A stretch of DNA of 19,402 nt from Candidatus Zhuqueibacterota bacterium. GTDB lineage: Bacteria; BS750m-G25. The translations under genes were made by a program, and so were the position numbers. The stretch lies in the NCBI GenBank assembly GCA_016783505.1, contig JADHWK010000041.1:1-19402 (forward strand), written 5' to 3'. Positions 331-15,915 of the stretch are shown piece by piece. A model generated the notes under the pieces. That model made no database searches. It was given only the letters and a program-made list of their open reading frames with translations, and was not told the origin of the DNA. How positions within the stretch are numbered: the stretch's first letter is position 1; each line of letters begins with the position of its first letter.

Positions 331-438
331 TCCTTCCTCGGGTGCGTTACTCTTTCTTAACCCGAGACGGGTTAGTGGAGAAAGTAGTTATAAAAAAATG
401 GGAATAAAAAACCAGCATCTTTTCAGTGCTGGTTTTTT
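331..438 (+). ncRNA. Possible small RNA or attenuator leader ending at an intrinsic terminator
   Basis: This stretch has the layout of a short transcript. There is an extended -10 upstream, then ACCCGAG (360-366) that can pair either with CTCGGGT at 337-343 or, through TAACCCG (358-364), with CGGGTTA at 368-374, and then a terminator hairpin with a T6 run at 406-438. The mutually exclusive pairings resemble an attenuator. No known riboswitch class was recognised. It could equally be a plain 3' terminator region of the upstream gene. Confidence 0.25.
406..438 (+). terminator. Intrinsic terminator hairpin (repeat family copy 1)
   Basis: CCAGCA (412-417) pairs with TGCTGG (427-432) across a TCTTTTCAG loop region, with A-run before and T-run after, so it could work in both directions. 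Nearly the same hairpin occurs at 8981-9014 and 9882-9914. It lies after the partial gene ending at 227. An ATG at 398 is in frame with the DUF1611 gene but sits at the edge of this hairpin and is unlikely to be its start. Confidence 0.75.
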
Positions 439-523
439 AAACGGATTGCACATCACACGCGTCGAAACGAATTGTGGTAGTAACCTCATACAAAATTATC
501 GGGAAGGAGTCAAAAAAATTCAT

Positions 524-590
524 AAAATTGGCCATTCAGCCATCTTTTTTCTATTGCTTATTTGGTTATTTTTATTTATCTTTTTTAAAA
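524..590 (+). promoter_or_regulatory. Shared upstream block with TTGCTT-N17-TATCTT promoter (copy 1)
   Basis: TTGCTT at 554-559 and TATCTT at 577-582, 17 bp apart, form a sigma-70-type promoter. The whole block, starting with ATTCATAAAATTG and continuing through CTTTTTTCTATTGCTTATTT, recurs without gaps at about 11924-11990 upstream of the nagZ-amiE fusion. A start near 589 would give the DUF1611 gene only a ~19-nt leader without an obvious ribosome binding site. Confidence 0.55.
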
Positions 591-607
591 TCAACTTTAC
601 ATCAATA

Positions 608-1660
608 ATGGACAAAAGAAGTTTAGGTAATATTGTTATCCTGGCTGAAGGAGCGGTCCGAAAGCGGGATTTTAAAACGGGCATCGGGGTGATTCGCTAT
701 GGCGCCGATCAGGTGGTGGCCATCATTGATAAGGAGACGGCCGGGCGTGATGCCTCTGAGTTCATCGGGTGCGGGAAAGGCATAAAAATCTTTCCCGACC
801 TCAAATCTACTTTTCCTTTAAAACCCCATACGCTTCTTTTGGGCACCTCGCCCATCGGGGGCGGAATTCCATCTGATTGGCTGAAGATCATCGAGAAGGC
901 CCTGAAGGCGGGGATGGGGGTAATCAGCGGCATGCACGAGTTTCTGTCCGAAAATCCCGGATTGGTCAAGTTGGCCCGGGAATATGGGGGGGGCATCTGG
1001 GACGTGCGCAAACCGGTTAAGGACTATCCGGTAGCCAGGGGGGCGGCTAGGGATACGGGTGTCATTCGCATCCTCACGGTGGGCAGCGACTGTTCGTCGG
1101 GCAAGATGACCGCCACTTTCGAGATGGAAAAAGAGATGACGAAAAGGGGGTATCGGGTCAAATCTATTGCCACCGGTCAATCAGGCATAATCATCAAGGG
1201 CAGGGGCATCCCCATCGACCGCATTCCCGGGGATTTCATGGCCGGGGCCATTGAGGAAGCGATTTTAGAAGAAGCCCCCGGTTGCGATTATCTCTTAATC
1301 GAAGGCCAGGGGTCTATCAACCATCCTGGCTATTCGGGGGTGGCCCTGGCCCTGCTCCACGGGGCGATGCCCCAATATCTGGTTTTCTGTCATGTGGTTA
1401 CTCGGGAGGGCATCCGAAAGTATCAGGGCTTTCCCTATCCCCCGTTAAAGGAGTTAATTCAATTGAACGAAGGGATGGCGACCCCGGTGTATCCGGCTCG
1501 CACCATTGCTGTGGCCCTGAACACCTTAGGTCTGAGTGATGCGGATAGTCAGGGGGTTATTCGTCGGATAGAGGAGGAAACGGGACTGCCCACCACCGAC
1601 CCGGTGCGGTGGGGAGCGGGGAAGCTGGTGGATGCCCTCGGGAAGGCTCAAGTAGTCTAA
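608..1660 (+). CDS. dgcN: DUF1611 family protein, probable D-glutamate N-acetyltransferase DgcN
   Basis: This 350-residue product matches the DUF1611 P-loop family. Visible features are an N-terminal Rossmann-like part (NIVILAEGAVRKRDFKTGIG), a conserved 'LLLGTSPIGGGIP' and 'GMHEFL' region, a Walker-A-like GSDCSSGKMT at residues 159-168, and 'LLIEGQGSINHPGYSGV'. Family members called DgcN acetylate D-glutamate and work with DgcA, an enolase-superfamily N-acetyl-D-Glu racemase; the next gene is exactly that type, which supports the assignment. The frame stays open back to an ATG at 398, but that start lies at a terminator hairpin and would add a promoter-derived hydrophobic stretch, so ATG 608 (MDKRSLGNIVI) is preferred although it lacks a clear Shine-Dalgarno. 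Expected to be cytosolic. The family is clear; the exact substrate is inferred. Confidence 0.85.
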   Translation: MDKRSLGNIVILAEGAVRKRDFKTGIGVIRYGADQVVAIIDKETAGRDASEFIGCGKGIKIFPDLKSTFPLKPHTLLLGTSPIGGGIPSDWLKIIEKALKAGMGVISGMHEFLSENPGLVKLAREYGGGIWDVRKPVKDYPVARGAARDTGVIRILTVGSDCSSGKMTATFEMEKEMTKRGYRVKSIATGQSGIIIKGRGIPIDRIPGDFMAGAIEEAILEEAPGCDYLLIEGQGSINHPGYSGVALALLHGAMPQYLVFCHVVTREGIRKYQGFPYPPLKELIQLNEGMATPVYPARTIAVALNTLGLSDADSQGVIRRIEEETGLPTTDPVRWGAGKLVDALGKAQVV

Positions 1661-1700
1661 CCTGTCAATAGTGTTTTTATAATCTTTTAGAAAAGACAGC

Positions 1701-1866
1701 ACACAGATGACGCTGGTTCACACATGTTTTCACGGATTCTTTTTATTTTTGTATCTAGAATAAGATGAAATTAAATGCAATTGTAAATTATCATTATTTT
1801 GGTTTTATGATTTATATTATCAATCTGTGTGAATTCGTCCCGAAGTTTCGGGATGTCATCCGTGTT
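1701..1866. repeat. Long imperfect inverted-repeat element in the gap before the epimerase gene
   Basis: Left arm about 1701-1740 (ACACAGATGAC, then TTCACACA) and right arm about 1821-1866 (CTGTGTGAATTC, then GTCATCCGTGTT) are imperfect inverted copies around an AT-rich centre. A 16-bp palindrome TCCCGAAGTTTCGGGA (1838-1853) sits inside the right arm. The 331-bp gap 1661-1991 shows no coding region. It may be a miniature non-coding repeat element. Confidence 0.4.
1838..1853. repeat. TCCCGA-N4-TCGGGA palindrome (copy 1)
   Basis: TCCCGAAGTTTCGGGA is a perfect palindrome with a short loop. The same outer hexamers recur at 3190-3205 and 17509-17524, always in intergenic DNA, suggesting a dispersed short hairpin family. 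Confidence 0.6.
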
Positions 1867-1920
1867 CTATTTCGATTCGTTAGATATACCTTAGTGGCTG
1901 AACTGCTACAAAATTGTTAT

Positions 1921-1947
1921 CCAGAACCGTCTCTTTAGAGCGGTTCT
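1921..1947. repeat. AGAACCG..CGGTTCT hairpin upstream of the epimerase gene
   Basis: AGAACCG, a bulged T, CTC, a TTTA loop, GAG and CGGTTCT form a 10-bp stem. The reverse complement of the same element lies at 3127-3153, so the two copies bracket the epimerase gene in inverted orientation. Each has the CCAG flank on the outer side relative to the gene. Confidence 0.6.
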
Positions 1948-1991
1948 AAAAATGCTTATGGATCTGGAAGATCTTCTAATTTTAGGATACC

Positions 1992-3023
1992 ATGAAGTTA
2001 ATTTATGAACCCTTGAAGTTGAGGACGCGGGAGACGTTCCGGATCACCCACGGTGCCACCCAGGTGGCCAATAACGTGCTGGTGAGAATTACCCAAGAGG
2101 ATGGTCTCGAGGGAATAGGGGAAGCGGCCCCCCGATGGTATTACGACGAGAGTCAGCGCTCTGTAATTTCTTTTCTTAAAAAATTGGGCGGTGAGCTTAG
2201 CCAGGATCCCTTTGATTTGGAAGTGGTCTCTTCCTTTTTAAACGGCCTTTCAGCAGCAGGTTCTTCGGCCAAGGCGGCGGTGGATGTAGCCCTCCACGAT
2301 CTAATCGGAAAGATACTGGGACTCCCCCTCTATAAATATCTTGGGCTTTCCCCGGAAAAGACTCCTTTGACTTCGTTCACCATCGCTATGCATGCCATCA
2401 CCAAAATGGAGGACCTGGCCCGGGAGGCGGGGGATTTTCCCGTCCTCAAGGTGAAGCTGGGTAGCGGGGATGATAGGGACGTTATCCGTCGCATCCGGGG
2501 GGTCACCGACGCCGTCATCCGGGTGGATGCCAACGAAGCCTGGAAAACCGATGAAGCAATTGAGAAGATCAATCAACTGGCTGAGTTTGACATTGAGTTT
2601 GTGGAGCAGCCCCTTCCTGCCGGGGACCTTGAGGGCTTGAAGGAAGTCAAGGCCAACGTGGATGTCCCCATCTTTGCCGACGAAAGCTGCAAAGTCCCGG
2701 CGGACATTCCGAAGGTGGCCGAGGCTGTGGATGGGGTCAATATCAAGGTGGCCAAGTGCGGGGGTTTAAGGGAGGCACTGAAGATGATCCACACCGCACG
2801 GGCCTGTGGGTTAAAGGTGATGATTGGGTGCATGATCGAATCCTCGGTGGGCATCACTGCCGCCGCCCACCTTTCCCCACTGGCCGACTATGCCGATCTG
2901 GATGGGAACCTTCTTATATCAAACGACCCTTTTGAAGGGGTTAGGGTTGAGAAAGGAAAATTAATCCTGCCCCAAGGGCCGGGTATCGGGGTTGTTAAGA
3001 GAATCCATGCAGTTAAAATGTAG
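1992..3023 (+). CDS. dgcA: Enolase-superfamily dipeptide epimerase / N-acetyl-D-glutamate racemase (DgcA-type)
   Basis: The 343-residue protein has the full muconate-lactonizing-enzyme plan. An N-terminal capping domain (about 1-115) is followed by a barrel with the K-x-K pair K153/K155 (LKVKLG), metal ligands D179 (VDANEAW), E205 (VEQPL) and D230 (FADES), the second catalytic lysine K252 (NIKVAKCGG), and the substrate-loop motifs 'MIGCMIESSVG' and 'DLDGNLL'. Such enzymes epimerise L-Ala-D-Glu from murein peptides (YcjG/YkfB) or racemise N-acetyl-D-Glu (DgcA). The neighbouring DgcN-type gene favours the second and the murein-recycling neighbourhood allows the first; sequence alone does not decide. 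AGGA at 1984-1987 precedes ATG 1992. A strong hairpin abuts the stop codon. Confidence 0.92.
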   Translation: MKLIYEPLKLRTRETFRITHGATQVANNVLVRITQEDGLEGIGEAAPRWYYDESQRSVISFLKKLGGELSQDPFDLEVVSSFLNGLSAAGSSAKAAVDVALHDLIGKILGLPLYKYLGLSPEKTPLTSFTIAMHAITKMEDLAREAGDFPVLKVKLGSGDDRDVIRRIRGVTDAVIRVDANEAWKTDEAIEKINQLAEFDIEFVEQPLPAGDLEGLKEVKANVDVPIFADESCKVPADIPKVAEAVDGVNIKVAKCGGLREALKMIHTARACGLKVMIGCMIESSVGITAAAHLSPLADYADLDGNLLISNDPFEGVRVEKGKLILPQGPGIGVVKRIHAVKM

Positions 3024-3049
3024 CCGCACCCTGAAGGCTCGGGGTGCGG
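3024..3049. terminator. Strong hairpin directly after the epimerase stop codon
   Basis: An 11-bp stem (CCGCACCCTGA / TCGGGGTGCGG, one T-G wobble) with an AGGC tetraloop begins right after the TAG stop. There is no T-run after it, so it is not a classic intrinsic terminator and may instead stabilise the 3' end of the message. Confidence 0.45.
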
Positions 3050-3126
3050 GGATATCATTCAGTCGGGCGTCAGTCGGGAGGGCCTGTTGCAGAACTATCG
3101 CAATTGATAATTTAGGGGTTATGTTT

Positions 3127-3153
3127 GAACCGCTCTAAAGAGCGGTTCTGGTT
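3127..3153. repeat. GAACCGCTC-TAAA-GAGCGGTTC hairpin downstream of the epimerase gene
   Basis: A perfect 9-bp stem with a TAAA loop (3127-3148), followed by TGGTT. It is the inverted partner of the element at 1921-1947. Confidence 0.65.
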
Positions 3154-3181
3154 AACTAGTTGTTAAAGAAAGCTTTAACCA

Positions 3182-3323
3182 GAACCTTATCCCGATGCTT
3201 CGGGATAGGTTCCGCCCCTTGCTGGTTAGGCAAGATCTTCAGACGGAAAATCAAGGATCTCTGGGTTGTGCCACAGACCAGGGAGCCTGACCGGCCCGAC
3301 CAACCGCAGGCATTAAGCCTGCG
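3182..3323. repeat. Cluster of intergenic palindromes
   Basis: Two clear hairpins are seen. At 3182-3212, GAACC(t)TATCCCGA pairs with TCGGGATAGGTTC; its core is the TCCCGA-N4-TCGGGA family. At 3304-3323, CCGCAGGC-ATTAA-GCCTGCGG. A further ACCAC/GTGGT group follows near 3361-3387. The 724-bp gap 3024-3747 has no convincing gene; a 65-codon frame at 3543-3740 resembles nothing known and was left out. Confidence 0.5.
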
Positions 3324-3505
3324 GCTAAAACTACTTGATATTGGTAACCCATCAAAATCAGGGTGGTCAACCACTTGTGGTCCACCAGCGTGAATTTGAA
3401 ATTGCCGTTTCAAGCCCTAAGGAACCCGCTTGCAGAGGAGTGTTATCACATTGAGACAGAAATGAGTTTAGTTGTGTCTGAAGAATTGGTGCGGGGGGGA
3501 GAAAA

Positions 3506-3579
3506 GTAACCGCGAAATTTATTTGCGCGAAAATATCAGCACTTGAAGGGTTTCGCGTTACCCCCATTTTTGCGGTTAC
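3506..3579 (+). promoter_or_regulatory. Possible switching RNA structure upstream of the parvulin gene
   Basis: GTAACCGCGAAA (3506-3517) can pair with TTTCGCGTTAC (3551-3561) or with TTTTTGCGGTTAC (3567-3579), so two stems compete for one arm. The location is the leader region of the gene at 3748. No known regulatory RNA was recognised. Confidence 0.25.
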
Positions 3580-3747
3580 AAGATCCCACAGACTTACAAG
3601 AATTGGTTCATTATTCTTCCTTTGCTAAAGAGCTATTCAAATACTCTCCCATCGTCAACATGCCATTACCATATCTTCTGGACACTATTGGAAATGATTT
3701 TGTCAGAATCAAAAGAATTGGGAGCATAGCTGAGGGGTAACCGAGAG

Positions 3748-5547
3748 ATGGGGAAACAAAGAAAGCAAAACAAAATCTTAATCGTAGTATCCATTGGTAT
3801 CTTTTTTTCAATGGCCGTTTTCTTCCTTGACTGTGGCAAGAGGAAAGAAGTTTCGGAAGTCAATGTGCTTGCCAAGGTGGGGGATCGGATCATCACCGAT
3901 GAGGACTTTCGGATCAGCTACGAGCTCTGGCCGCGCTACTCCTGGGGAACGAAAGGGATGGATGCTAAGTGGGAGCACCTAAATACCCTAATTGAAAAGA
4001 AGTTGGTCGCCTTAGAGGGAATCAGGCGGGGGATTGACCAACAGGAGCCCATCCGGGAAAGGTTGAAATGGTATCAGAAGAAGGCTGCCATTGAACAACT
4101 CTATAAGCGAGAAATCAGTGAGAATGTTGAAATTACTGAGGCGGAAGCGAGGGAGGCCTTTCTCAAATATAATGAAAAAATCAGGGCTCGGCACCTGTTC
4201 GCTGAAACCTTAGATGAGGCCTTAAAGCTACGTGATCGCCTGTTGGCTGGGGAACGCTTTGAGGACGTGGCCGCTGAGATCTTTACAGATCCTACCCTAC
4301 GGGCAAACGGGGGGGACCTGGGGTTTTTCACCTGGGGGGAGATGGACGAGGATTTCGAAAAGGCCGCCTTTTCCCTGATGCCGGGGGAGTTATCGGAGCC
4401 GGTGAAGACCAGATGGGGTTACCACATTATCAAAGTAGAAGAGCGCCACCGCAACGCCATTATCACCGAATACGATTTTTATCAGAAAAAAAACCATATT
4501 GATTTTATCTTGAAAAGGAGAAAAGAAGAAAAATTGTCCCGGAAATACATCAAGGATTTTATGGACGATAAAAAGGTGGTGTTGAAGGGAAAGCCGTTCG
4601 GCTTTCTGGTGCGGACGAGTCGGGAGAAGTTAGGCCCTCCCGAACAACCCATTCCCCCCTACCTGCCCAAGTTGTTGGACCGGGAGATCGGTGAGGTGAA
4701 GGAGGTCATCGAGGACCATCTGGATGAGGTGTTGGTCACCTTTGAAGGAGGGCACTGGACCATTGGCGATTTTTTTGAAAAGCTGCGTCCCGTCCCCCCG
4801 AGCGAACGGCCGTTGCTGTCCAGTTTTACCGGTCTGAAAAATGGTATCGGGGTTATGGTGAGGGATGAATTTCTGGCCAAGGCAGCCTTCAAAAAGGGGC
4901 TTCATCATTCAGATGAAGCTAAAACTGAAGTCCAAAAACAGCAAGAAGATATTCTGTTTGGCCGACTGAAAACCAGCATTTTGGATACGGTCACGGTGAC
5001 TGAAGGGGAAATGCTTTCTTATTTTCAACAAAACAGGGATGATTATGATATTCCTGAGATGGTAAACGTTCGGGAGATTTTTGTTCGGGACAGAAGCACG
5101 GCCGAGGACCTTTTGTCCCGAATTAAAGCGGGGGAGGACATGGCCGCGTTGGCACGGGAGTATACCCTGCGCACCTGGGTCAAAGACAAGGGTGGGGAGT
5201 TCGGCTATTTTCCCCGGGGTCGGCACGGGGAGATCGGTCGCTTGGCATTTTCCCATCAGGCTGGGGACCTGGTAGGCCCCATCGAGATTGCTGGGGGACC
5301 CCCCCACGGGGGCTATTCTATCTTTAAGGTCATCGGGAGAAAAGATAGTCAGGAAAAATCCTTTGAGGAAGTTCGGGATGAGGTGCAAAAGGATAAGTTT
5401 AAGAAGAAGAAAAAAGCCGTGTGGGCGGATTTCGTGGCCTCCCTCAGGGATCGGTATCCGGTTGAAGTGGATGAGGACCTGCTGACCTCCGTTCCGGTGA
5501 CCGACACCCAGGGCCGGCCATCGCCGATGGTGGTCATTCGACGTTAA
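3748..5547 (+). CDS. Peptidyl-prolyl cis-trans isomerase lipoprotein with two parvulin domains
   Basis: The 599-residue protein begins with a basic, then hydrophobic export signal ending at C29 (FFLDCG), which looks like a lipobox although Asp at -1 is atypical. Next come a SurA/PrsA-like helical N-region (VGDRIITDEDF), a first parvulin domain at about 144-236 (IRARHLF, GGDLGFFTWGEM, GELSEPVKTRWGYHIIKVEER), a long linker, and a second at about 438-534 (VNVREIFV, GGEFGYFPRGRHGEIG, YSIFKVIGRK). Proteins of this build assist folding of exported proteins in the periplasm. The second domain departs from consensus around its last strand (IEIAGGPPHGGYS), so one domain may be non-catalytic. The stop codon is two bases from the next start, suggesting co-transcription with the sugar kinase; a direct role in murein recycling is not evident. 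Start at ATG 3748, with GAGGGG at 3732-3737 upstream. Confidence 0.9.
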   Translation: MGKQRKQNKILIVVSIGIFFSMAVFFLDCGKRKEVSEVNVLAKVGDRIITDEDFRISYELWPRYSWGTKGMDAKWEHLNTLIEKKLVALEGIRRGIDQQEPIRERLKWYQKKAAIEQLYKREISENVEITEAEAREAFLKYNEKIRARHLFAETLDEALKLRDRLLAGERFEDVAAEIFTDPTLRANGGDLGFFTWGEMDEDFEKAAFSLMPGELSEPVKTRWGYHIIKVEERHRNAIITEYDFYQKKNHIDFILKRRKEEKLSRKYIKDFMDDKKVVLKGKPFGFLVRTSREKLGPPEQPIPPYLPKLLDREIGEVKEVIEDHLDEVLVTFEGGHWTIGDFFEKLRPVPPSERPLLSSFTGLKNGIGVMVRDEFLAKAAFKKGLHHSDEAKTEVQKQQEDILFGRLKTSILDTVTVTEGEMLSYFQQNRDDYDIPEMVNVREIFVRDRSTAEDLLSRIKAGEDMAALAREYTLRTWVKDKGGEFGYFPRGRHGEIGRLAFSHQAGDLVGPIEIAGGPPHGGYSIFKVIGRKDSQEKSFEEVRDEVQKDKFKKKKKAVWADFVASLRDRYPVEVDEDLLTSVPVTDTQGRPSPMVVIRR

Positions 5548-5549
5548 AA

Positions 5550-6536
5550 GTGATGGTAACCGAATTGATGAATGGTTTTATATTGGGGGTTGATGGGGGT
5601 GGGACCAAAACCGTATGGGCCCTAACCCATTCTACGGGTAGGATTCTCATCCGTAGGGAAGGAAGAAGCGCCAACTTTCAGATCTTAGGGGAGGAAGGGT
5701 TGAGGGATGTCCTCGCCGAAGAGGGGTTCCAGACATTGAGGGAGGCCGGGGTATCCCCTGAAGATGTGGCGGTAGCGTTCTTGGGATTAGCCGGGGTGGG
5801 CAGGGAAAGGGACCGGGTCCAGGTGGCCCAAATGGCGGCCCAGATCGGTTTGGCCCGGGGGGTTTTGGTGGACTCCGACGCCCGGATCGCCCTGGCTGGG
5901 GCTTTCGCCGGGGAGCCGGGCATTATCCTGATAGCGGGCACCGGCTCGATCTGTTATGGGATAAACGAGGAGGGGGAGATGGCCCGCAGCGGGGGCTGGG
6001 GCTATTTGCTGGGGGACGAGGGAAGCGGATACTTCCTGGGCCAACAGGCCTTGATCGCCGCCCTGAAAGATTTTGATGGCCGGGGACAAAAGACCGAACT
6101 ACGACCCGTCCTTGAAGAAAAATTTGGGGTGGAAAATATAAGCCTGATTATCCCGGCTGTGTATTCCGGGAAGATTTCCCGGGAAGCGATTGCCGGCCTG
6201 GCCCCACTTGTCTTTGATACAGCGGATCGGGGGGATGCGGTGGCACGGGAGATCCTGCAGAGGGCGGGTTTGGCGCTGGCCGGGCTAACCAGGGCGGTGG
6301 CGGTCAGACTAGGGTTGACAGGAAAGTTAATCCGCCTGGCCCTCATTGGGGGTCTTTTTAGCCGAAAGAGGTGGTTTATCGGTCCCATCAGGGAGGAACT
6401 AGGCGCCCTTTCCCCTGGGGTCGAGATTGTCAAACCTCAACTTGAACCGGTCCTTGGAGCTGTCCTTCTGGCTCTGCAAGCCTGCCATATTACCCTTACG
6501 AAGGATATCCTGCGTAACCTCTCCAGATCTTCTTGA
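5550..6536 (+). CDS. murK: BadF/BadG-family ATPase, probable N-acetylmuramate/N-acetylglucosamine kinase
   Basis: The 328-residue ASKHA-fold protein shows the phosphate-1 motif GVDGGGTKT (residues 13-21), 'FLGLAGVGRERDR', a 'DSDARIALAGA' segment, the phosphate-2 motif IAGTGS (about 128-133), and 'GGWGYLLGDEGSGYFLG' typical of BadF-type GlcNAc kinases. MurK of Clostridium, in this family, phosphorylates MurNAc and GlcNAc. Here the gene stands just before namZ and murQ, which release MurNAc and consume MurNAc-6-P, so a MurNAc/GlcNAc kinase role fits well; the substrate is inferred. Translation may start at GTG 5550, ATG 5553 or ATG 5568; none has a strong ribosome binding site, and coupling to the gene ending at 5547 is likely. 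Confidence 0.85.
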   Translation: MMVTELMNGFILGVDGGGTKTVWALTHSTGRILIRREGRSANFQILGEEGLRDVLAEEGFQTLREAGVSPEDVAVAFLGLAGVGRERDRVQVAQMAAQIGLARGVLVDSDARIALAGAFAGEPGIILIAGTGSICYGINEEGEMARSGGWGYLLGDEGSGYFLGQQALIAALKDFDGRGQKTELRPVLEEKFGVENISLIIPAVYSGKISREAIAGLAPLVFDTADRGDAVAREILQRAGLALAGLTRAVAVRLGLTGKLIRLALIGGLFSRKRWFIGPIREELGALSPGVEIVKPQLEPVLGAVLLALQACHITLTKDILRNLSRSS

Positions 6537-6729
6537 TAAACCTAAGGTAGTCCCCGATTGAAATTGGGGTTTGGTCCATGTTTAAATTTCCTGAAGTCGA
6601 TTTCTTTGAATTTTATTGGGAATCGGTTTTAACCGATTTTGAAATTAATAGACGCCCTTGCCGGTCGGTGACTCGCTTAGGGGCAGGCCGAATTTATTCG
6701 GTGGTCTTAAAGACATAGGGAGATAAATA
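6537..6729. other. Intergenic leader before namZ with palindromes
   Basis: The gap contains AATCGGTTTTAACCGATT (an 18-nt palindrome in the 6620s-6640s), a CCGAAT-TTA-TTCGG hairpin, and CCCCGATTGAAATTGGGG near 6555. AGGGAGAT just before ATG 6730 is a good ribosome binding site. No promoter consensus stands out, and no known riboswitch was recognised. Confidence 0.4.
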
Positions 6730-8010
6730 ATGCAAAAGAAAATTCGAATTTATCACTATGCTTTTTTCTTACTATTCTTGGGCTTAATGGGAAAGGATGG
6801 TAGGGAAAGAGTATATGGAGAGGAAATGCATCGAAATAACGACATAAAAGTTAAGCCTGGCGTAGAAGTTCTTTTAGAAAAAAAATTAGATCTGTTGGCG
6901 GGGAAAAGGGTGGGTCTGATCACCAACCCCACCGGGGTGACTTCAAACCTCATGTCCACCATTGACGTGCTGGCGGAACGACCTGAATTTAAACTGATTG
7001 CCCTGTTCGGTCCCGAACACGGCATCCGGGGAAACGTCTGGGGCGGACAGAAGGTTAAAAATTTTCGCGACCCAAAAACCGGGATTAAGGTCTACAGTCT
7101 CTATGGGAAGGTTTTTAAACCCACCGGCAAGATGCTAAAAAAGGTGGATGTATTGATCTTTGACATACAGGACATCGGGATTCGGCCTTACACCTACATC
7201 TACACCATGGCTTACGCCATGGAGGCGGCCGCCGAGTTTGGAATCCCTTTCATTGTGTTGGATCGGCCCAATCCTCTGGGGGGAGAATTGGTGGAGGGGC
7301 CGGTTTTAGACCTTAGGTTTAAGTCATTCATCGGGCTTTACCCCATCCCCTATATTCACGGGATGACGGTGGGGGAACTGGCGAAGTTATTTAATGAAGA
7401 ATTCGGGATTAATTGTGACCTTAAGGTCGTTCCTATGGAAGGTTGGGAGCGGCGGATGAACTTCGGGGATACGGGCCTGCCCTGGGTTCCCCCCTCCCCC
7501 CATGTATCACACTGGCAGACGGTTTTCTACATTGCTGCTACCGGAGGCATCGGGGAATTGGGGACCCTCTCTGAGGGGGTAGGAACGCCCCAGCCTTTCG
7601 AGCTGATTGGTGCTCCGTGGATCGATCCAGAAATCCTGGCCGCAGAACTGAACGCCAAAAATTTGCCCGGCGTACTCTTCCGGCCGACCTATTATAAAAG
7701 TTTCTATTTCCGATTCATCGAGGAACCAGTCCCCGGGGTTCAGCTCCATATTCAGAATTTTAGAACCTTTCAACCCTTTACGACCCAGATTCACCTCCTT
7801 TGCGCCTTAGCTAAGCTTTATCCCCACTTGCCTTTCTTGGAAAAATTAGAGGGGACAGAAGGAAAACACGGATTCTACCGGGCCGTGGGGACGGATCAGG
7901 TTGAAAAGGATCTGCGGGCCGGGAAATCGGCCCCCGAGATCATCGCCAGTTGGGAGGATGGCCTTCAAAGATATATGAAAATTCGAGAGAAATATTTAAT
8001 GTATAAATAA
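6730..8010 (+). CDS. namZ: Exo-beta-N-acetylmuramidase NamZ (DUF1343, GH171)
   Basis: This 426-residue protein carries an N-terminal hydrophobic export segment (YHYAFFLLFLGLMG) and then the complete DUF1343 fold: 'GKRVGLITNPTGV', 'FGPEHGIRG' (E96, equivalent to the family's proposed catalytic Glu), 'FDIQDIGIRPYTYIYTM', 'LDRPNPLGG', 'PYIHGMTVGELA', 'GLPWVPPSPHV' and 'TLSEGVGTPQPFE'. NamZ removes MurNAc from the non-reducing end of murein glycans and acts together with the glucosaminidase NagZ and the amidase AmiE in Bacillus subtilis; homologues of all three are in this window. It acts outside the cytoplasm, so the MurNAc released must be imported and phosphorylated before MurQ can use it. The gene is 22 bp from murQ and probably shares its transcript. 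Confidence 0.94.
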   Translation: MQKKIRIYHYAFFLLFLGLMGKDGRERVYGEEMHRNNDIKVKPGVEVLLEKKLDLLAGKRVGLITNPTGVTSNLMSTIDVLAERPEFKLIALFGPEHGIRGNVWGGQKVKNFRDPKTGIKVYSLYGKVFKPTGKMLKKVDVLIFDIQDIGIRPYTYIYTMAYAMEAAAEFGIPFIVLDRPNPLGGELVEGPVLDLRFKSFIGLYPIPYIHGMTVGELAKLFNEEFGINCDLKVVPMEGWERRMNFGDTGLPWVPPSPHVSHWQTVFYIAATGGIGELGTLSEGVGTPQPFELIGAPWIDPEILAAELNAKNLPGVLFRPTYYKSFYFRFIEEPVPGVQLHIQNFRTFQPFTTQIHLLCALAKLYPHLPFLEKLEGTEGKHGFYRAVGTDQVEKDLRAGKSAPEIIASWEDGLQRYMKIREKYLMYK

Positions 8011-8032
8011 TTGATTATCTTTTAGGAGAAAA

Positions 8033-8947
8033 ATGGGACGGGAAATTTTCGATGAGATTAAAGATCTGATCACCGAGAAACGGAATCCGGCCACCATGGG
8101 TATTGATTCCAAGTCCACGGAGGAAATCTTAACCTTGATTAATAGCGAAGATCAGCGAATTCCCGAAATTGTGCGGTCGGAAATCCCTTACATCGCCAGC
8201 GCCGTTGAACTGGTGGTGGCGACCTTCAAACGGGGGGGGCGGCTATTTTACGTCGGTGCCGGGACCTCGGGCCGGCTGGGGGTTTTGGACGCATCCGAAT
8301 GTCCCCCCACCTTCGGCACCGACCCCGAAATGGTGCAGGGGATGATCGCCGGGGGATACGGGGCCTTAGTGCGGGCGGTGGAGGGGGCTGAGGATAAAAG
8401 GGAAGATGGAGGAAAGGATCTGACCGAACAAGGGTTTACAAAGGACGACATTCTGGTGGGTATCGCCGCCAGCCGCCGCACCCCCTACGTGATCGGAGCC
8501 GTGGAGAAGGCCCGGGAATTGGGCGCCATGACGATCTACCTTACCACTACTCCCCGGGAAGAGATGAACATTCCGGTGGACGTGGCCATCTGTCCAGTAG
8601 TGGGTCCCGAGGTGGTGATGGGCTCTACCCGGATGAAATCGGGCACCGCCCAGAAGTTAATCCTTAACATGATAACCACCACCGCCATGATCCGGCTGGG
8701 CAAGGTCTACGAGAACATGATGGTGGACCTGAAGATGACATCCCAGAAGCTAAAGGAACGCTCCAAGCGCACGGTGATGATCGTCACCGGGGCGGACTAT
8801 GACGAGGCGGAACGGGTGCTGAAATTGGCCCACGGCCACGTGAAGACAGCCTTGGTGATGATCCTGGCCGGGGTGGATAGAGAGGAGGCATTAAGAAGAT
8901 TAGTAAAAAGTGGGGGGTTTGTAAGAAAAGCGATAGAAGGGGGTTGA
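8033..8947 (+). CDS. murQ: N-acetylmuramic acid 6-phosphate etherase MurQ
   Basis: The 304-residue cytosolic SIS-domain enzyme cleaves the lactyl ether of MurNAc-6-P to GlcNAc-6-P and D-lactate. The signature GAGTSGRLGVLDASECPP is intact, with E89 and E120 (EGAE) matching the two essential glutamates of Escherichia coli MurQ. 'GIAASRRTPYVIGA', 'GPEVVMGSTRMKSGTAQK' and 'KVYENMMVDL' are also typical, and the C-terminal UBA-like helical tail is present. Length is normal for the family. AGGAG five bases before ATG 8033 fixes the start. It is the last gene of the run beginning at 3748 and is followed by a strong intrinsic terminator. Confidence 0.97.
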   Translation: MGREIFDEIKDLITEKRNPATMGIDSKSTEEILTLINSEDQRIPEIVRSEIPYIASAVELVVATFKRGGRLFYVGAGTSGRLGVLDASECPPTFGTDPEMVQGMIAGGYGALVRAVEGAEDKREDGGKDLTEQGFTKDDILVGIAASRRTPYVIGAVEKARELGAMTIYLTTTPREEMNIPVDVAICPVVGPEVVMGSTRMKSGTAQKLILNMITTTAMIRLGKVYENMMVDLKMTSQKLKERSKRTVMIVTGADYDEAERVLKLAHGHVKTALVMILAGVDREEALRRLVKSGGFVRKAIEGG

Positions 8948-9014: not shown

Positions 9015-9095
9015 TTTGTGTAAGTTTCCTATGTAGTTATCGTTGAGGGTTTTTATCAGGTGATAATATCCGCAGGATTTTGGAGAAGGCGTTTA
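8981..9095 (+). repeat. Direct repeat, copy 1 (~115 bp)
   Basis: Aligns with 9882-9999 at roughly 80% by eye, from the terminator through 'TTTTTATCAGGTGA' and 'GATTTTGGA' to 'AAGGCGTTTA'. Copy 1 ends exactly on the antitoxin stop codon. Confidence 0.75.
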
Positions 9096-9383
9096 TCTGC
9101 CATGCGCTGCTTTCGTTATCTTTTCTTGGAGCCAAAAGTTAATCAGCGTCTCAATTGATACACCTTGCTGGCGCGCCTGAGCCCGCAGTTGAGCGATTAA
9201 GTCCTTCGCCACAGCACAATATATCTTACTTGAACGGAGGTTTATCTGCACATCCACATCTTCCATGAAGTCTTCGTAGTCGGTGGTGTTATGGGTGTCC
9301 CAGAACGCCCAAAACTCTTCAAGCGAGTCAAAGTTTTCCGGTAACGGATCACGTTGCGGGGTTTGTTTCTTACTTTTTGTCAT
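9093..9383 (-). CDS. BrnA/CopG-like antitoxin
   Basis: The 96-residue protein has an N-terminal 'FDSLEEFWAFWDTHNTTDYEDF' region characteristic of antitoxins paired with BrnT-type toxins, then a ribbon-helix-helix-like C-terminus ('INLRSSKIYCAVAKDLIAQL', 'GVSIETLINFWLQEK'). It should bind and neutralise the toxin encoded immediately upstream and repress the shared promoter. Its ATG overlaps the last 14 bases of the toxin gene, giving translational coupling in the toxin-first order known for brnTA. No frameshift or truncation is seen. The exact subfamily name is uncertain. Confidence 0.85.
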   Translation of the reverse strand: MTKSKKQTPQRDPLPENFDSLEEFWAFWDTHNTTDYEDFMEDVDVQINLRSSKIYCAVAKDLIAQLRAQARQQGVSIETLINFWLQEKITKAAHGR

Positions 9384-9660
9384 AGCTCTTTCGCTCCTTC
9401 TTGTCCATATTACGAGCGCTCAAAATCAGTGCTTCATGGGTCAATTTATGGATGAAGAATACAGTCAAATAGCGTCCAGACTCTGTCTGTCCTAGCGCTC
9501 TGTAAACGTGTTCGCCGCGGAAGCGCCCTCTGCGCATCTTCTTAACTTTGGGCTTGCTAACAAAAACTTCCTCAATCTCCGTCATCGTAACATGGTGTTT
9601 GATTTCGATTTTCTCTATAACATTATCCAGCCAGATGAGGCCAGTAATTTTTATTACCAT
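9370..9660 (-). CDS. BrnT-like toxin (RelE-fold ribonuclease family)
   Basis: The 96-residue product matches the BrnT pattern: an N-terminal W-x-x-x-V-I-E-K-I-E-I-K-H-H-V segment, 'MTEIEEVF', a basic block, 'GEHVYRALGQTESGRYLTVFFI', and the C-terminal 'LILSARNMDKKERKSY'. BrnT toxins are small RNases that stop translation. AAGGA lies just before the ATG at 9658-9660. A weak promoter (TAGAAT with TTTCGA 16 bp upstream on the - strand) may lie in 9670-9710. The pair is opposite in strand to the surrounding recycling genes and is bracketed by direct repeats, consistent with acquisition as a module. Confidence 0.85.
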   Translation of the reverse strand: MVIKITGLIWLDNVIEKIEIKHHVTMTEIEEVFVSKPKVKKMRRGRFRGEHVYRALGQTESGRYLTVFFIHKLTHEALILSARNMDKKERKSYDKK

Positions 9661-11923: not shown

Positions 11924-11990
11924 TAAAATTGACTTTTCAATTACCTTTTTTCTATTGCTTATTTGGATATTTTTGCTTATCTTTTTTTGG
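11924..11990 (+). promoter_or_regulatory. Shared upstream block with TTGCTT-N17-TATCTT promoter (copy 2)
   Basis: TTGCTT at 11955-11960 and TATCTT at 11978-11983, 17 bp apart. This is the gap-free counterpart of 524-590. A start near 11990 gives the fusion gene a ~36-nt leader with a good ribosome binding site. Confidence 0.55.
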
Positions 11991-12025
11991 AAAAGTTGAG
12001 GGGAACTAAAAAGAAAGAGGAGAGA

Positions 12026-14905
12026 ATGAAAATCCTTTTGAAGTCCAATTTAATTTTAATAGCTATGAGTGTTACCATGATAACCTGCAGTAAAGGACCA
12101 AGGTCTTTGGCTTTTCAAGACAAAGGGATGGTCAATTCAAAATTAATTGAACGTCTGTTGAACCAAATGAGCCTTGATGAGAAGATCGGCCAGATGATGA
12201 CAGTTCACTTTCACGGCCGCTTCTTCAACTCAGCCGACCCCACCTTTCATAAAAGGATCGAAAAGCAGATCGTCGAAAGCAAGGTGGGTGGATTTATCAT
12301 CTACGGGGGGAACGTCTACGAGACGGCTCACCTGATCAACCGCATGCAGAGGCTCTCCAAACTACCTTTATTGATCGCCTCTGACGTGGAGTGGGGTGCC
12401 GGCCAGCAGATCCGGGGGGCGGTCGTCTTCCCAACCCTCATGGCTATCGGAGCCACGGGGAACGAGGAATATGCCTACTTAGCGGGAAAGATCACCGCCG
12501 AGGAGTGCCGGGCCCTGGGGATTCATCAGGCCTACGCCCCGGTGATGGACGTGAACAATAATCCCGAAAACCCCATCATCAACGTCCGCTCCTTCGGCCA
12601 GACCCCGGAAGGGGTCTCTAAACTGGGCAAGGCCTTCATCCGTGGTCTTCAGGAAAACGGCGTTCTGGCCACTGCCAAGCATTTTCCCGGCCACGGGAAT
12701 ACCAGGCTTGACTCCCATATCGAGATGCCGACGATCTATTCGGATTTAGACAGTCTGAAAAAGGTTGAATTTTACCCCTTTGGTAAAGCTATTCAGGCCG
12801 ATGTGGCCGCAATCATGACTGCCCATATTGCCGTCCCCGCCCTGGACCGTACCCCCAATAGGCCGGCTACCCTTTCACCCAAGGTGATCACCGGGCTGTT
12901 GAGGAAGAAGATGGGGTTTGGGGGGCTGATCATTACCGACTCGATGATGATGGGGGGAATCACCCGGGGCCATGCCGTGGTGAAAGCCACGGTGGGAGCG
13001 GTTAAAGCGGGAACCGACATCATCTTGGTCCCCCCCGACCCAGAGCTGGCCATCCGAGCCTTAGTGGCGGCGGTCAAAAGGGGTGAGATCTCTGAGGAAC
13101 GGATCGATGAGTCGGTGCGGAGGATTCTGGGGGTCAAGGATCGGCTGGGGCTTTTCAAACACCGGCTTGTGGAAATTGACCCTCTACCCGGTGCCATCGG
13201 CAGCCCGGAGAACTGGGGTGTAGCCCGAAGGATCGCCGAGGGCGCTGTAACCCTGGTAAAAAATGGGGAAAGCCTCATGCCCCTGACCCTGCCCGATTCA
13301 GTCCGGGTACTATGTTTGACCCTGAACTCCGACCCCCGAAGGACCACCCTGGGGGCCCCCTTCCGGAAAGCGCTCCAGGCCCGTGTTGATTCGGTAAAGC
13401 TGGCAATAATTGACGACAGAACGGATGAGGAGGAATTCGGGGGGTTGCTGGATTTTGCAAAGGGGATGGACGCCATCATCGCTGGGGCTTTTGTGGAGGT
13501 GCGGGCCTACAAGGGAACAGTGGCCATGGAGGAGAAACAGGCCCAATTTGTGGAACGATTGTTGAATCTGGGGAAACCCTTCATCCTGGCATCCTTCGGT
13601 AGCCCTTATCTGATCCGACAATTTCCGGATGTGCCTGTCTATCTGTGCAGCTACAGCAAGGACGAATGGTCCCAGATAGCGGCGGTGGAAGCCATCTTCG
13701 GTGAGATCGAGGTTAATGGAAAGCTGCCCGTCTCTATTCCCGGTTACTTTCCCCTGGGGCATGGCATCCATCTGCCCAAAACTGAAAGGCTGGCCTTCTT
13801 TCCTGTGTTGAGGGAGGTTGAACCCAAAAGGGCGAAATTTTCCCCGGCAAGATTGGATTCTTTAGTAAAGGTGGTCGAAGAAGCCATTACAGATACTGCT
13901 TTTCCGGGAGCGGCCTTACTGTTGGCCCGGTCCGGAAAGGTTGTTTTCAACCGGGGATTCGGGCATTTTAGGTATGATCCTGCATCACCACCAGTAATCC
14001 CAAATACAATGTTTGACTTGGCCTCGGTGACCAAGGTGGCAGCCACTACTACGGCAATCATGATCCTCTACGACCGGGGAATGTTAGACCTGGACCACCG
14101 GGTCGCCGATTACCTGCTCGAATTCGGTCAGCAGGGGAAAGAGCGCATTACCATCCGACACATTCTGACCCACACCTCTGGGCTTACGGCCTGGGTCCCC
14201 CTGTTTGATTCCTGTAAAGGGAAGGATGAAGTCAAAGAAAAAATTTTCGGAATGGAACTGGAATATAGGACCGGGAAAAAGACCATCTACAGCGACCTGG
14301 GGATGATCACCATAGGATTGGTGATCGAAAAGATCAGCGGAATGCCCCTGGATCAGTTCTGCCGGGAGGAAATCTACGAACCGTTGGGGATGACGCATAC
14401 CATGTTTAATCCCCCGAAGGAATTATGGGATCAGATCGCTCCCACGGAGGATTCCCCCCAATGGGGCCGGGTGATGCAGGGGGAGGTTCACGACCAGAAC
14501 GCCTACGTCATGGGGGGTGTGGCCGGGCACGCCGGGCTATTCAGCACGGCCGGGGATATGGCCATCTTGTTACAGATGATCTTAAACGGCGGGTATTACA
14601 ACGGCAGGCGCTTCTTCAGCCCGGAGACGGTAGAGCTTTTTACGGAACGGGCTAATTTGGTAGAGGAATCCAGCCGGGCGCTGGGCTGGGATACCCGTTC
14701 GGAACCGGCCTCTACCGGGGCCTATTTTACCGACGAAACCTTCGGCCATCTGGGGTTCACGGGGACCTCTGTCTGGGTTGATCCCGAAAGGCAACTTTTA
14801 GTGGTTTTGCTGACGAACCGGGTCTACCCCAGCCGGGAGAACATCAAGATTCGACAGGTGAGACCGAGGGTGCATGATGCGGTGATGGGGGCTCTATTGA
14901 AATGA
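12026..14905 (+). CDS. NagZ-AmiE fusion: GH3 beta-N-acetylglucosaminidase plus beta-lactamase-fold hydrolase lipoprotein
   Basis: ATG 12026 is preceded by GAGGAG; an in-frame TTG at 11963 lies inside the promoter and is rejected. The 959-residue product starts with a lipoprotein signal (lipobox MITC, C21). The GH3 half (about 35-380) has K218-HFPGHG-224 with D229-S-H231, the acid/base loop of NagZ, and the nucleophile D305 (IITDSMMMGG); a GH3 C-terminal-type domain follows to about 590. The C-terminal half (about 610-955) is a class-C beta-lactamase/esterase fold with S667-V-T-K670, Y755-S-D and H908-L-G910. B. subtilis has the same two activities as neighbouring genes: NagZ (YbbD) and AmiE (YbbE), an N-acetylmuramyl-L-alanine amidase. 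The fusion would thus remove GlcNAc and the stem peptide from muropeptides outside the inner membrane. GH3-serine hydrolase fusions are known in Bacteroidetes. The amidase role is inferred. Confidence 0.92.
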   Translation: MKILLKSNLILIAMSVTMITCSKGPRSLAFQDKGMVNSKLIERLLNQMSLDEKIGQMMTVHFHGRFFNSADPTFHKRIEKQIVESKVGGFIIYGGNVYETAHLINRMQRLSKLPLLIASDVEWGAGQQIRGAVVFPTLMAIGATGNEEYAYLAGKITAEECRALGIHQAYAPVMDVNNNPENPIINVRSFGQTPEGVSKLGKAFIRGLQENGVLATAKHFPGHGNTRLDSHIEMPTIYSDLDSLKKVEFYPFGKAIQADVAAIMTAHIAVPALDRTPNRPATLSPKVITGLLRKKMGFGGLIITDSMMMGGITRGHAVVKATVGAVKAGTDIILVPPDPELAIRALVAAVKRGEISEERIDESVRRILGVKDRLGLFKHRLVEIDPLPGAIGSPENWGVARRIAEGAVTLVKNGESLMPLTLPDSVRVLCLTLNSDPRRTTLGAPFRKALQARVDSVKLAIIDDRTDEEEFGGLLDFAKGMDAIIAGAFVEVRAYKGTVAMEEKQAQFVERLLNLGKPFILASFGSPYLIRQFPDVPVYLCSYSKDEWSQIAAVEAIFGEIEVNGKLPVSIPGYFPLGHGIHLPKTERLAFFPVLREVEPKRAKFSPARLDSLVKVVEEAITDTAFPGAALLLARSGKVVFNRGFGHFRYDPASPPVIPNTMFDLASVTKVAATTTAIMILYDRGMLDLDHRVADYLLEFGQQGKERITIRHILTHTSGLTAWVPLFDSCKGKDEVKEKIFGMELEYRTGKKTIYSDLGMITIGLVIEKISGMPLDQFCREEIYEPLGMTHTMFNPPKELWDQIAPTEDSPQWGRVMQGEVHDQNAYVMGGVAGHAGLFSTAGDMAILLQMILNGGYYNGRRFFSPETVELFTERANLVEESSRALGWDTRSEPASTGAYFTDETFGHLGFTGTSVWVDPERQLLVVLLTNRVYPSRENIKIRQVRPRVHDAVMGALLK

Positions 14906-14910
14906 GTTAA

Positions 14911-14932
14911 AAGTTAGAAGTGAAAAGTTAAA
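14911..14932. repeat. Left 22-nt inverted repeat bounding the RAYT cassette
   Basis: AAGTTAGAAGTGAAAAG plus TTAAA matches the reverse complement of 15894-15915 at 20 of 22 positions. It starts six bases after the nagZ-amiE stop codon. The sequence is low in complexity, which weakens the case for a true transposon end. Confidence 0.5.
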
Positions 14933-14964
14933 AGTTAAAAAAATCATCAAGGGTTGCAATCTAA

Positions 14965-15018
14965 GCTCCCGGTGGATGTTGCCTGCCCGCCAAAGATTGG
15001 CAGGCGGGTCATCCACCG
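14965..15018 (-). repeat. REP-like hairpin A, with a second palindrome nested in its loop
   Basis: GCTCCCGGTGGATGTTG opens the element and TCATCCACCG closes it, giving the same stem and GAGC tail as the other copies. The loop is interrupted by about 26 bp that is itself an imperfect palindrome (CCTGCCCGCC...GGCAGGCGGG). Confidence 0.7.
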
Positions 15019-15080
15019 TAATCCCCCGCTCCTTATGGATATTGTCTGTTCCCCAATGTTTTAATGGGTCACCATTTTTT

Positions 15081-15106
15081 CGGGGAAGACAACTTCCCCG
15101 GCGAGC
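15081..15106 (+). repeat. REP-like hairpin B
   Basis: CGGGGAAG-ACAA-CTTCCCCG followed by GCGAGC: an 8-bp stem, an ACAA loop and a GAGC tail. Confidence 0.75.
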
Positions 15107-15134
15107 ATTGAAAACTGTTTTTTTTATAAACTAT

Positions 15135-15162
15135 GCTCCCGGCGGATGTTATCATCCGCCGG
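15135..15162 (-). repeat. REP-like hairpin C
   Basis: GCTC, CCGGCGGATG, TTAT, CATCCGCCGG: a perfect 10-bp stem with the GAGC tail on the - strand. TTATCA (15149-15154) and TATAAT (15172-15177), 17 bp apart, form a possible promoter for the transposase partly inside this hairpin. Confidence 0.75.
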
Positions 15163-15188
15163 AATATCCTGTATAATAAGGACGCAGC

Positions 15189-15743
15189 TTGGGAACCTAT
15201 GCAAAAAAATTTCAAGATTCTGGACTTCTTTTTATTACGAATACAGTACTAAATTGGAATAACCTCTTTCTTGATCGTATCTGTACTGAAATCGTTATGA
15301 AGAGCTTGCTTTGTTGCATTGAGCAGCAATGGATCAACCTTTTTTGCTATGTTTTAATGCCTAACCACTACCATGTGATTGTCCGTATGCTTGACGGTCA
15401 CAAGGTTGAGAATTTCCTTCGGGATTTTCATAAATTCACATCACAAAAGATTCTGTTCTATTTGAAAGACACAAGATCGAATTTGCTTTCCCAGTTTTAT
15501 GTCGAGGTTAAAAAACAGCGGTATAAGATTTGGATGAGGGATGTTGACATTAAGAACGTAATTACCCCTCAGTTTCTTTTGCAAAAGGCCGAATACATTC
15601 ACAATAACCCTTTGTCTGAGAAATGGAGGAGGATTTTGAGGGTAGAGAATCCATGGGATTACCCCTATTCCAGCGCAACTTTTTATTTAAAGGGACAAAA
15701 TGATCCTTTTATTCCTTTGGCTGATTTTCGGGAATTAGTTTGA
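15189..15743 (+). CDS. REP-associated tyrosine transposase (RAYT, Y1_Tnp/HUH family)
   Basis: The 184-residue protein carries the HUH motif in 'YVLMPNHYHVIV' (H60-Y-H62) and the nucleophilic tyrosine in 'AEYIHNNPL' (Y136), followed by 'WDYPYSSA', all hallmarks of the IS200/IS605-related transposases that mobilise or maintain REP sequences. The start is TTG 15189 with AAGGA at 15178-15182; no ATG start fits. No frameshift is seen, so the enzyme may be active. Three REP hairpins lie on each side in alternating orientation, which is the standard RAYT/REPtron layout. The cassette lies between the nagZ-amiE fusion and the first symporter gene and may separate their transcription. Single-copy RAYTs are often domesticated; there is no nearby sign of recent transposition. 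Confidence 0.9.
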   Translation: MGTYAKKFQDSGLLFITNTVLNWNNLFLDRICTEIVMKSLLCCIEQQWINLFCYVLMPNHYHVIVRMLDGHKVENFLRDFHKFTSQKILFYLKDTRSNLLSQFYVEVKKQRYKIWMRDVDIKNVITPQFLLQKAEYIHNNPLSEKWRRILRVENPWDYPYSSATFYLKGQNDPFIPLADFRELV

Positions 15744-15760
15744 GGGGATAAAGAGTTGGC

Positions 15761-15788
15761 GTCGGGGAAGACAACTTCCCCGACGAGC
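15761..15788 (+). repeat. REP-like hairpin D
   Basis: GTCGGGGAAG-ACAA-CTTCCCCGAC followed by GAGC: a perfect 10-bp stem. Confidence 0.75.
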
Positions 15789-15821
15789 TGTTAGCGGAAA
15801 ATGATTTCTTCCTTTTTCTAA

Positions 15822-15849
15822 GCTCCCGGCGGATGTTGTCATCCGTCGG
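15822..15849 (-). repeat. REP-like hairpin E
   Basis: GCTC, CCGGCGGATG, TTGT, CATCCGTCGG: the same stem as hairpin C with one G-T pair, loop ACAA on the - strand. Confidence 0.75.
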
Positions 15850-15857
15850 GGATAATA

Positions 15858-15885
15858 GTCGAGGATGACAACATCCTAGACGAGC
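15858..15885 (+). repeat. REP-like hairpin F
   Basis: GTCGAGGATG-ACAA-CATCCTAGAC followed by GAGC: the same architecture with one mismatch in the stem. Confidence 0.7.
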
Positions 15886-15893
15886 ATATGACA

Positions 15894-15915
15894 TTTAAGT
15901 TTTCACTTTTAACTT
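15894..15915. repeat. Right 22-nt inverted repeat bounding the RAYT cassette
   Basis: Inverted counterpart of 14911-14932 (20 of 22 identical). It ends seven bases before the next gene's start codon, so the cassette fills essentially the whole intergenic space. Confidence 0.5.

Follow-up and report, generated by a model that had tools for sequence, protein, structure and literature searches.

A small transposase gene set among six inverted hairpins raises the question of whether gene and hairpins belong together, and if so, as what kind of element. The gene and its hairpins lie within positions 14911-15915 of the window, which here means the whole 19,402-nucleotide stretch that was analysed. 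We consider it very probable that the locus is a REPtron, in which the gene of a single-strand-specific HUH/Y1 transposase (RAYT) lies between the inverted, unlike REPs C and D, next to the non-autonomous REPINs A-B and E-F, and which would work by the mechanism proposed below. The family, the copy numbers, the arrangement, the unlike-partner rule, the predicted folds, the integrity of the gene and one polymorphic site were read from the sequence. The tag of this RAYT/REP system, GCTC, is unusual.

Layout of the six hairpins

The original prediction placed six REP hairpins, A to F, around the transposase gene, and all six were recovered at its positions, five as exact matches and one with two mismatches. 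A search of the 19.4-kb window with GGAWGANAACWTCCNNNNNGAGC, allowing up to two mismatches, hit six places, exactly A-F, against 0.01 expected by chance (mean of 200 dinucleotide shuffles), and folding each hairpin against its own shuffles gave z values of -4.4 to -6.6. The orientations are also as predicted: -,+,- for A-C, + for the gene and +,-,+ for D-F. The description of all six as a paired stem with an ACAA loop and a GAGC tail holds in general, except that A has no plain ACAA loop, its loop being broken by a 27-nt palindrome (CCTGCCCGCCAAAGATTGGCAGGCGGG, 14982-15008), and that the loop of C reads ATAA. In place of a symmetrical frame around the transposase, we prefer to see three consecutive units, each head-to-head: a REPIN (A-B), a REPtron core (C-RAYT-D) and a second REPIN (E-F), all with the CCGG end on the left.

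The first unit, a long-spacer REPIN, is composed of hairpin A (14965-15019, minus strand; CCGG-foot, with the 27-nt palindrome nested in its loop and the GCTC tag at 14965-14968), a spacer at 15020-15079 whose sequence recurs between the hairpins of the genome's other long-spacer REPINs, and hairpin B (15080-15106, plus strand; GTCG-foot, GGAAG/CTTCC stem, ACAA loop, GAGC tail). A reading of 15026-15079 as a decayed seventh hairpin was dropped in view of this match to a conserved spacer. The REPtron core begins with hairpin C (15135-15162, minus strand; CCGG-foot, GGATG/CATCC, ATAA loop) and ends with hairpin D (15761-15788, plus strand; GTCG-foot, GGAAG/CTTCC). Its ends are like those of the A-B REPIN, and at the position of the spacer sits the RAYT (TnpA-REP) gene (15189-15743, plus strand), which has a TTG start and encodes 184 aa with the HUH motif NHYH (H60, H62) and Y136 in YIHNNP. 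The third unit is a short-spacer REPIN, made of hairpin E (15822-15849, minus strand; CCGG-foot, GGATG/CATCC, ACAA loop), an 8-nt spacer (15850-15857), apparently a truncated version of the AATTCC...ATATAATA spacer, and hairpin F (15858-15885, plus strand; GTCG-foot, GGATG/CATCC, ACAA loop).

Just outside the outermost REPs there is an A/T-rich inverted repeat of 25 nt with 88% complementarity (14911-14935 and 15891-15915), which could be an outer boundary or a product of chance; its left arm (14918-14939) has no other copy in the genome at up to two mismatches. A search of the window against Rfam returned no match.

A dispersed REP family and its tag

The original prediction staked the REP reading on a genome-wide search for further copies, and such copies are present. 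In the window's genome assembly (2.5 Mb, 60% complete), which was covered by searches and by the sequence surrounding their hits, a pattern scan for the window REP found 39 places, against none with a reversed control pattern. A covariance model of the GCTC REP family, built from 21 copies, counted 44 copies there, 49 in Zixibacteria RBG_16_43_9 (G059) and 41 in the draft genome of a second Zixibacteria MAG (G060), and 0, 0 and 1 in three other genomes. The two predicted stem variants recur as well, with 19 exact GGATG/CATCC and 8 exact GGAAG/CTTCC stems among the 31 cleanly scored copies of the window's own genome. The tag is GCTC/GAGC in 24 of these 31, which were in part selected for it, and GTAG in none; the window REPs carry neither the GT[AG]G nor the CGTC that defines the foot of a canonical REP hairpin. 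Tag, loop and upper stem are conserved in the family, and the lower 5 bp of the stem are variable yet paired, with two-sided, pairing-preserving changes at 6 of the 10 stem pairs. Most copies in the window's genome are intergenic. Taken over the loci, 12 of 93 REPs lie inside an ORF of at least 120 aa, compared to 1288 of 1860 random positions drawn from the same loci (69%; p 5e-28). The REPs thus both flank the RAYT gene and disperse between genes genome-wide, as expected of a REP-associated transposase.

These repeats share many traits with the GTAG and CGTC super-families of REPs (PMC3733652): they are palindromes of 20-40 bp with an unpaired tetranucleotide at one end, they form head-to-head dimers of like or unlike partners with conserved spacers, and some have loop variants with inner palindromes. 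The tag GCTC, however, fits neither super-family, and a matching RAYT is present here, unlike for the CGTC repeats. In the window's genome, some dozen REPs have a palindromic insert of about 13-40 nt at one loop position, between TTG and T (14982-15008 of the window, and on contigs C28, C22, C21, C3, C66, C26, C49, C70, C25, C27 and C69). Amplification of a single subfamily may explain them; loop variants of a similar kind have been described for the GTAG-3 and GTAG-14 REPs. A text search of the literature found no paper containing both Zixibacteria and "repetitive extragenic palindrom".

It had further been suggested that the enzyme may recognise the tail and the loop rather than the stem. 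The first part of this proposal is in keeping with the conservation of tag and loop; the exclusion of the stem is less so, as the loop-proximal half-stem (GGAWG/CWTCC) is conserved too and may also be read, although the figure for its conservation is inflated, this same motif having served to find the copies. A second REP family gives a view of the tag from outside. G059 and G060 also encode RAYT homologues of about 42% identity, and the REPs on their flanks have GTTGGTC or GTTGGTG, an AGGA-like loop and then NNNN-AGC; such REPs number more than 70 copies in each of these genomes; a search for them in the window's genome found none. In both families the AGC lies 11 nt from the loop, exactly so in 19 of the 19 hairpins flanking second-family RAYTs, which were gathered without using the tag. 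Since this spacing is kept while stem and loop differ, the tag is what changes least from one family to the other, a comparison of sequences that favours recognition of the tag, as far as the tail goes. By analogy with GTAG, the enzyme most likely recognises the strand on which GCTC precedes the hairpin on its 5' side, the complement of the earlier writing as GAGC.

Other hairpins were met along the way. The second RAYT of the window's genome (L002, 37% identity) is flanked by yet another kind, with an ACA loop, and in a distant genome (G054) the sequence GTTGGTCACAAGACCAACACACAGC, which resembles the second family, occurs six times unchanged, on C19, C144, C159, C215, C227 and C274. For the 41 GCTC-family REPs of the draft G060, a cognate RAYT was not detected in that genome, only the second-family RAYT and more distant ones, which speaks against the REPtron reading as far as a draft genome can.

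Unlike partners and the fold of a REPIN

Adjacent REP pairs are all head-to-head, apart from two junctions between units in the window. Such pairs, with GCTC and GAGC outside and a spacer between, are repeated in the genome, as REPINs are, and every readable pair in the window's genome joins a CCGG-foot hairpin to a GTCG-foot hairpin. The spacers fall mainly into two families: AATTCCNGGGGTNTCNATATAATA, which goes together with a GGATG right hairpin, and a longer one, which goes together with a GGAAG right hairpin. Because each spacer family goes with its own right-hairpin stem, the GGATG and GGAAG variants, on their sequences, mark two REPIN lineages; they also mark the right end. The inverted REP doublet as a mobile unit is known from the REPINs of Pseudomonas fluorescens SBW25 (PMC3116915), but the GI REPINs of Pseudomonas are nearly symmetrical, with one long hairpin as their predicted fold, whereas the predicted fold of the unlike pairs here is two hairpins.

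Like lower stems are joined in none of the 28 cleanly scored REPINs from three genomes, against a mean of 6.5 on random re-pairing of REPs within genomes (P 0.0012). This P value is optimistic, since certain stem combinations are seen more than once and G059 and G060 share some orthologous sites, so that the pairs lack independence. Folding with DNA energy parameters predicts two separate hairpins for 27 of the 28 natural REPINs. Artificial same-stem REPINs, in which the right REP is an inverted copy of the left, form a single long hairpin in 28 of 28; this outcome largely follows from complementarity, and the evidence lies in the natural pairs. The predicted folds suggest that unlike stems keep the two hairpins of a REPIN separate, in a clover fold. 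Di Nocera et al. wrote of the preference for unlike REP partners (heterodimers) that it "has no obvious explanation", suggesting protection from hairpin-cleaving enzymes (PMC3733652), and Bertels and Rainey proposed the two-hairpin "clover", not the long hairpin, as the RAYT substrate (PMC3116915, supplement legend). A single measurable rule, that unlike stems preserve the clover fold, would link the two.

We propose the following mechanism. On a single strand, most likely the lagging-strand template, each REP would fold into its own hairpin, and the unlike lower stems of a unit would favour such separate folding over one long hairpin. A RAYT dimer would bind the two hairpins of the unit, making contact with the ANAA loop, with the GGAWG part of the stem next to it and, at the foot, with the tag that precedes the stem as GCTC. 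Y136 would then cut beside the tag and join the strand elsewhere, so that the unit is moved or copied. We infer the single-stranded substrate, the cut by Y136 beside the tag, the binding as a dimer and the movement by RAYT from the biochemistry of TnpA-REP and of IS200/IS605.

For one step of this mechanism there is a serious contender, to which we give somewhat less than an even chance: the unlike lower stems may have been inherited from a handful of founding REPINs, or may shield the hairpins from host enzymes that cleave them, instead of being selected for a two-hairpin transposition substrate. A few stem combinations do recur (CTTGT with GGCGA, GTCGA with CTGGC) among pairs that are not independent, and protection from SbcCD-type cleavage is an idea already offered in PMC3733652. 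Yet several distinct combinations occur over the three genomes, all of them unlike, and the second REP family likewise pairs two forms, GTTGGTC with GTTGGTG.

The enzyme and the possible mobility of its unit

The claim of a REP system with an apparently intact enzyme is borne out by the dispersed genome copies and by the ORF at 15189-15743, which has no internal stop and whose TTG start aligns with the ATG start of the nearest homologue (55% identity). The NCBIfam profile for REP-associated tyrosine transposases (REP_Tyr_transpos, NF047646) matches the protein with an E of 1e-18; its score of 67.6 bits is below the curated cut-off of 80, an annotation threshold and not a biological criterion. 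Relatives score 71.9 (homologue L048), 79.1 (homologue L049) and 84 (the second RAYT of the same genome). The score for Pfam Y1_Tnp, 17.1, is likewise below its cut-off of 23. Among solved structures, the AlphaFold model (mean pLDDT 90.6) comes closest to 4er8, a complex of E. coli TnpA-REP with a REP hairpin (E 1.8e-8); the transposases of ISDra2 and IS608 come next. A phmmer search of the protein against PDB sequences gave no match; a relative reaches 4er8 weakly. The HUH histidines H60 and H62, W115 and Y136 are invariant across twelve aligned relatives, and the protein has the HUH motif, the catalytic Tyr in Y---NP and the Y1 transposase fold of class 2 TnpA-Y1. A further RAYT homologue in G059 (L095, C85:3927-4388) has one in-frame TAA and is apparently decayed; its counterpart in G060 (L093) is open.

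Among the closest known systems is the E. coli REPtron (TnpA-REP/RayT, 4er8; RAYT group 2, subclass 2.2). The two share the HUH/Y1 fold, the class 2 Y---NP motif and a gene flanked by REPs in inverted pairs of two unlike subfamilies, which in E. coli are Y and Z2, in three REPINs (PMC6006769). The window protein is, however, only 19% identical to E. coli RayT and has an insertion of about 20 residues ahead of W115 in the alignment of the two; the tag is GCTC here and GTAG there, and the stems here are mostly perfect, not bulged. The residues that read GTAG in E. coli, Q95, E100, H101 and R104 (PMC6006769), correspond to M116, I121, K122 and I125, and are mostly not kept. The anatomy fits TnpA-Y1 subclass 2.6 (RAYT group 5), found mostly in Bacteroidetes, whose flanking structures are atypical and without GT[AG]G (PMC6006769). 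Compared with Table 1 of that paper, the window protein has the YIH[QN]NP motif (as YIHNNP), the insertion of about 21 residues between helix C and strand 4, the SS motif near the C-terminus, a similar length (184 aa against about 179) and non-GTAG flanking structures with copies elsewhere in the genome. It has NHYH and WM in place of NH[LIV]H and WQ, while its 55% homologue has the consensus NHLH and WQ. The nearest relatives found here are from Zixibacteria, and the RAYT and REP family held in common suggests that the window's genome may be of Zixibacteria too. A tag and a pair rule are defined here; RAYTs of this type, termed atypical until now, thereby gain a tag that is spelled out, from a lineage without cultures. 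By motifs and anatomy, the window RAYT fits the description "subclass 2.6-like" only.

Evidence that bears on mobility comes from this 55% homologue. The REPtron of G059 has the minimal form, REP(-), RAYT, REP(+), with the same REPs near the gene on both sides. Its site is empty in the close relative G060, with flanks 93-94% identical. In the occupied site, a host segment of 194 bp is followed by 45 bp, GCTC-REP-RAYT-REP-GAGC, a second copy of the 194 bp, and host sequence again; the direct duplication (L143, 714-907 and 1584-1777) is 98.5% identical between copies and consists of the end of a gene and a downstream hairpin. G060 has a single copy of the 194 bp and continues without the insert. 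The difference could be an insertion with duplication or a duplication followed by loss in G060; the insertion is simpler. It is worth keeping in mind that this is one event, seen in a homologue, the window cassette itself being without an empty-site counterpart. The duplication is a single case too, because the other REP units examined had no long flanking direct repeat, once masked runs of N and repeats of other families are set aside. To our knowledge, a 194-bp duplication is not expected from IS200/IS605 chemistry, where no such step is known. The REPINs at L131:3431-3494 and L129:1018-1085 are also absent in G060, which is weak evidence, as other repeats have changed there too; at one more REPIN site, L127 of G059, the contigs of G060 break off and give no comparison. 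Still, an occupied and empty site pair for a RAYT gene is of interest, although TnpA-REP has been described as a domesticated transposase (PMC8266576).

A discrete insertion such as that of G059, together with an enzyme of the same fold and chemistry class, is also what an IS200/IS605-like insertion sequence with merely REP-like terminal hairpins would give. We hold this reading to be very improbable: instead of several near-identical full copies, the genome has one copy of the gene against about 44 hairpins, gene-less inverted hairpin pairs exist, and the motif is YIHNNP (class 2), not the Y---Q signature of IS200 (PMC6006769). There is equally little chance that the host maintains these hairpins to terminate transcription or to stabilise RNA and that the transposase is only incidentally nearby, for although they are intergenic and REPs elsewhere are thought to acquire such roles (PMC3733652), most have no T-run after the stem, tag and loop are strand-asymmetric, head-to-head pairs have conserved spacers, and hairpins frame the RAYT on either side in both of two homologues that are no more than 55% identical.

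The REPtron reading can be taken further, but as a speculation that is more probably wrong than right: GCTC, with AGC fixed 11 nt from the loop, would define a third class of REP tag, served by a RAYT lineage of its own, the unlike stems would be kept for the clover substrate, and the REPtron would move leaving long (194 bp) direct duplications.

Elsewhere in the window, the genes at 398-8947 and 11963-14905 look like a peptidoglycan-recycling cluster followed by SSF symporters; by eye, the cluster has L-Ala-Glu epimerase-like, sugar kinase-like, DUF1343-like and MurQ-like genes, and Pfam finds in it a fusion of GH3 and beta-lactamase. Two small overlapping ORFs at 9093-9660 on the minus strand resemble, again by eye only, a BrnT/BrnA-type toxin-antitoxin pair.
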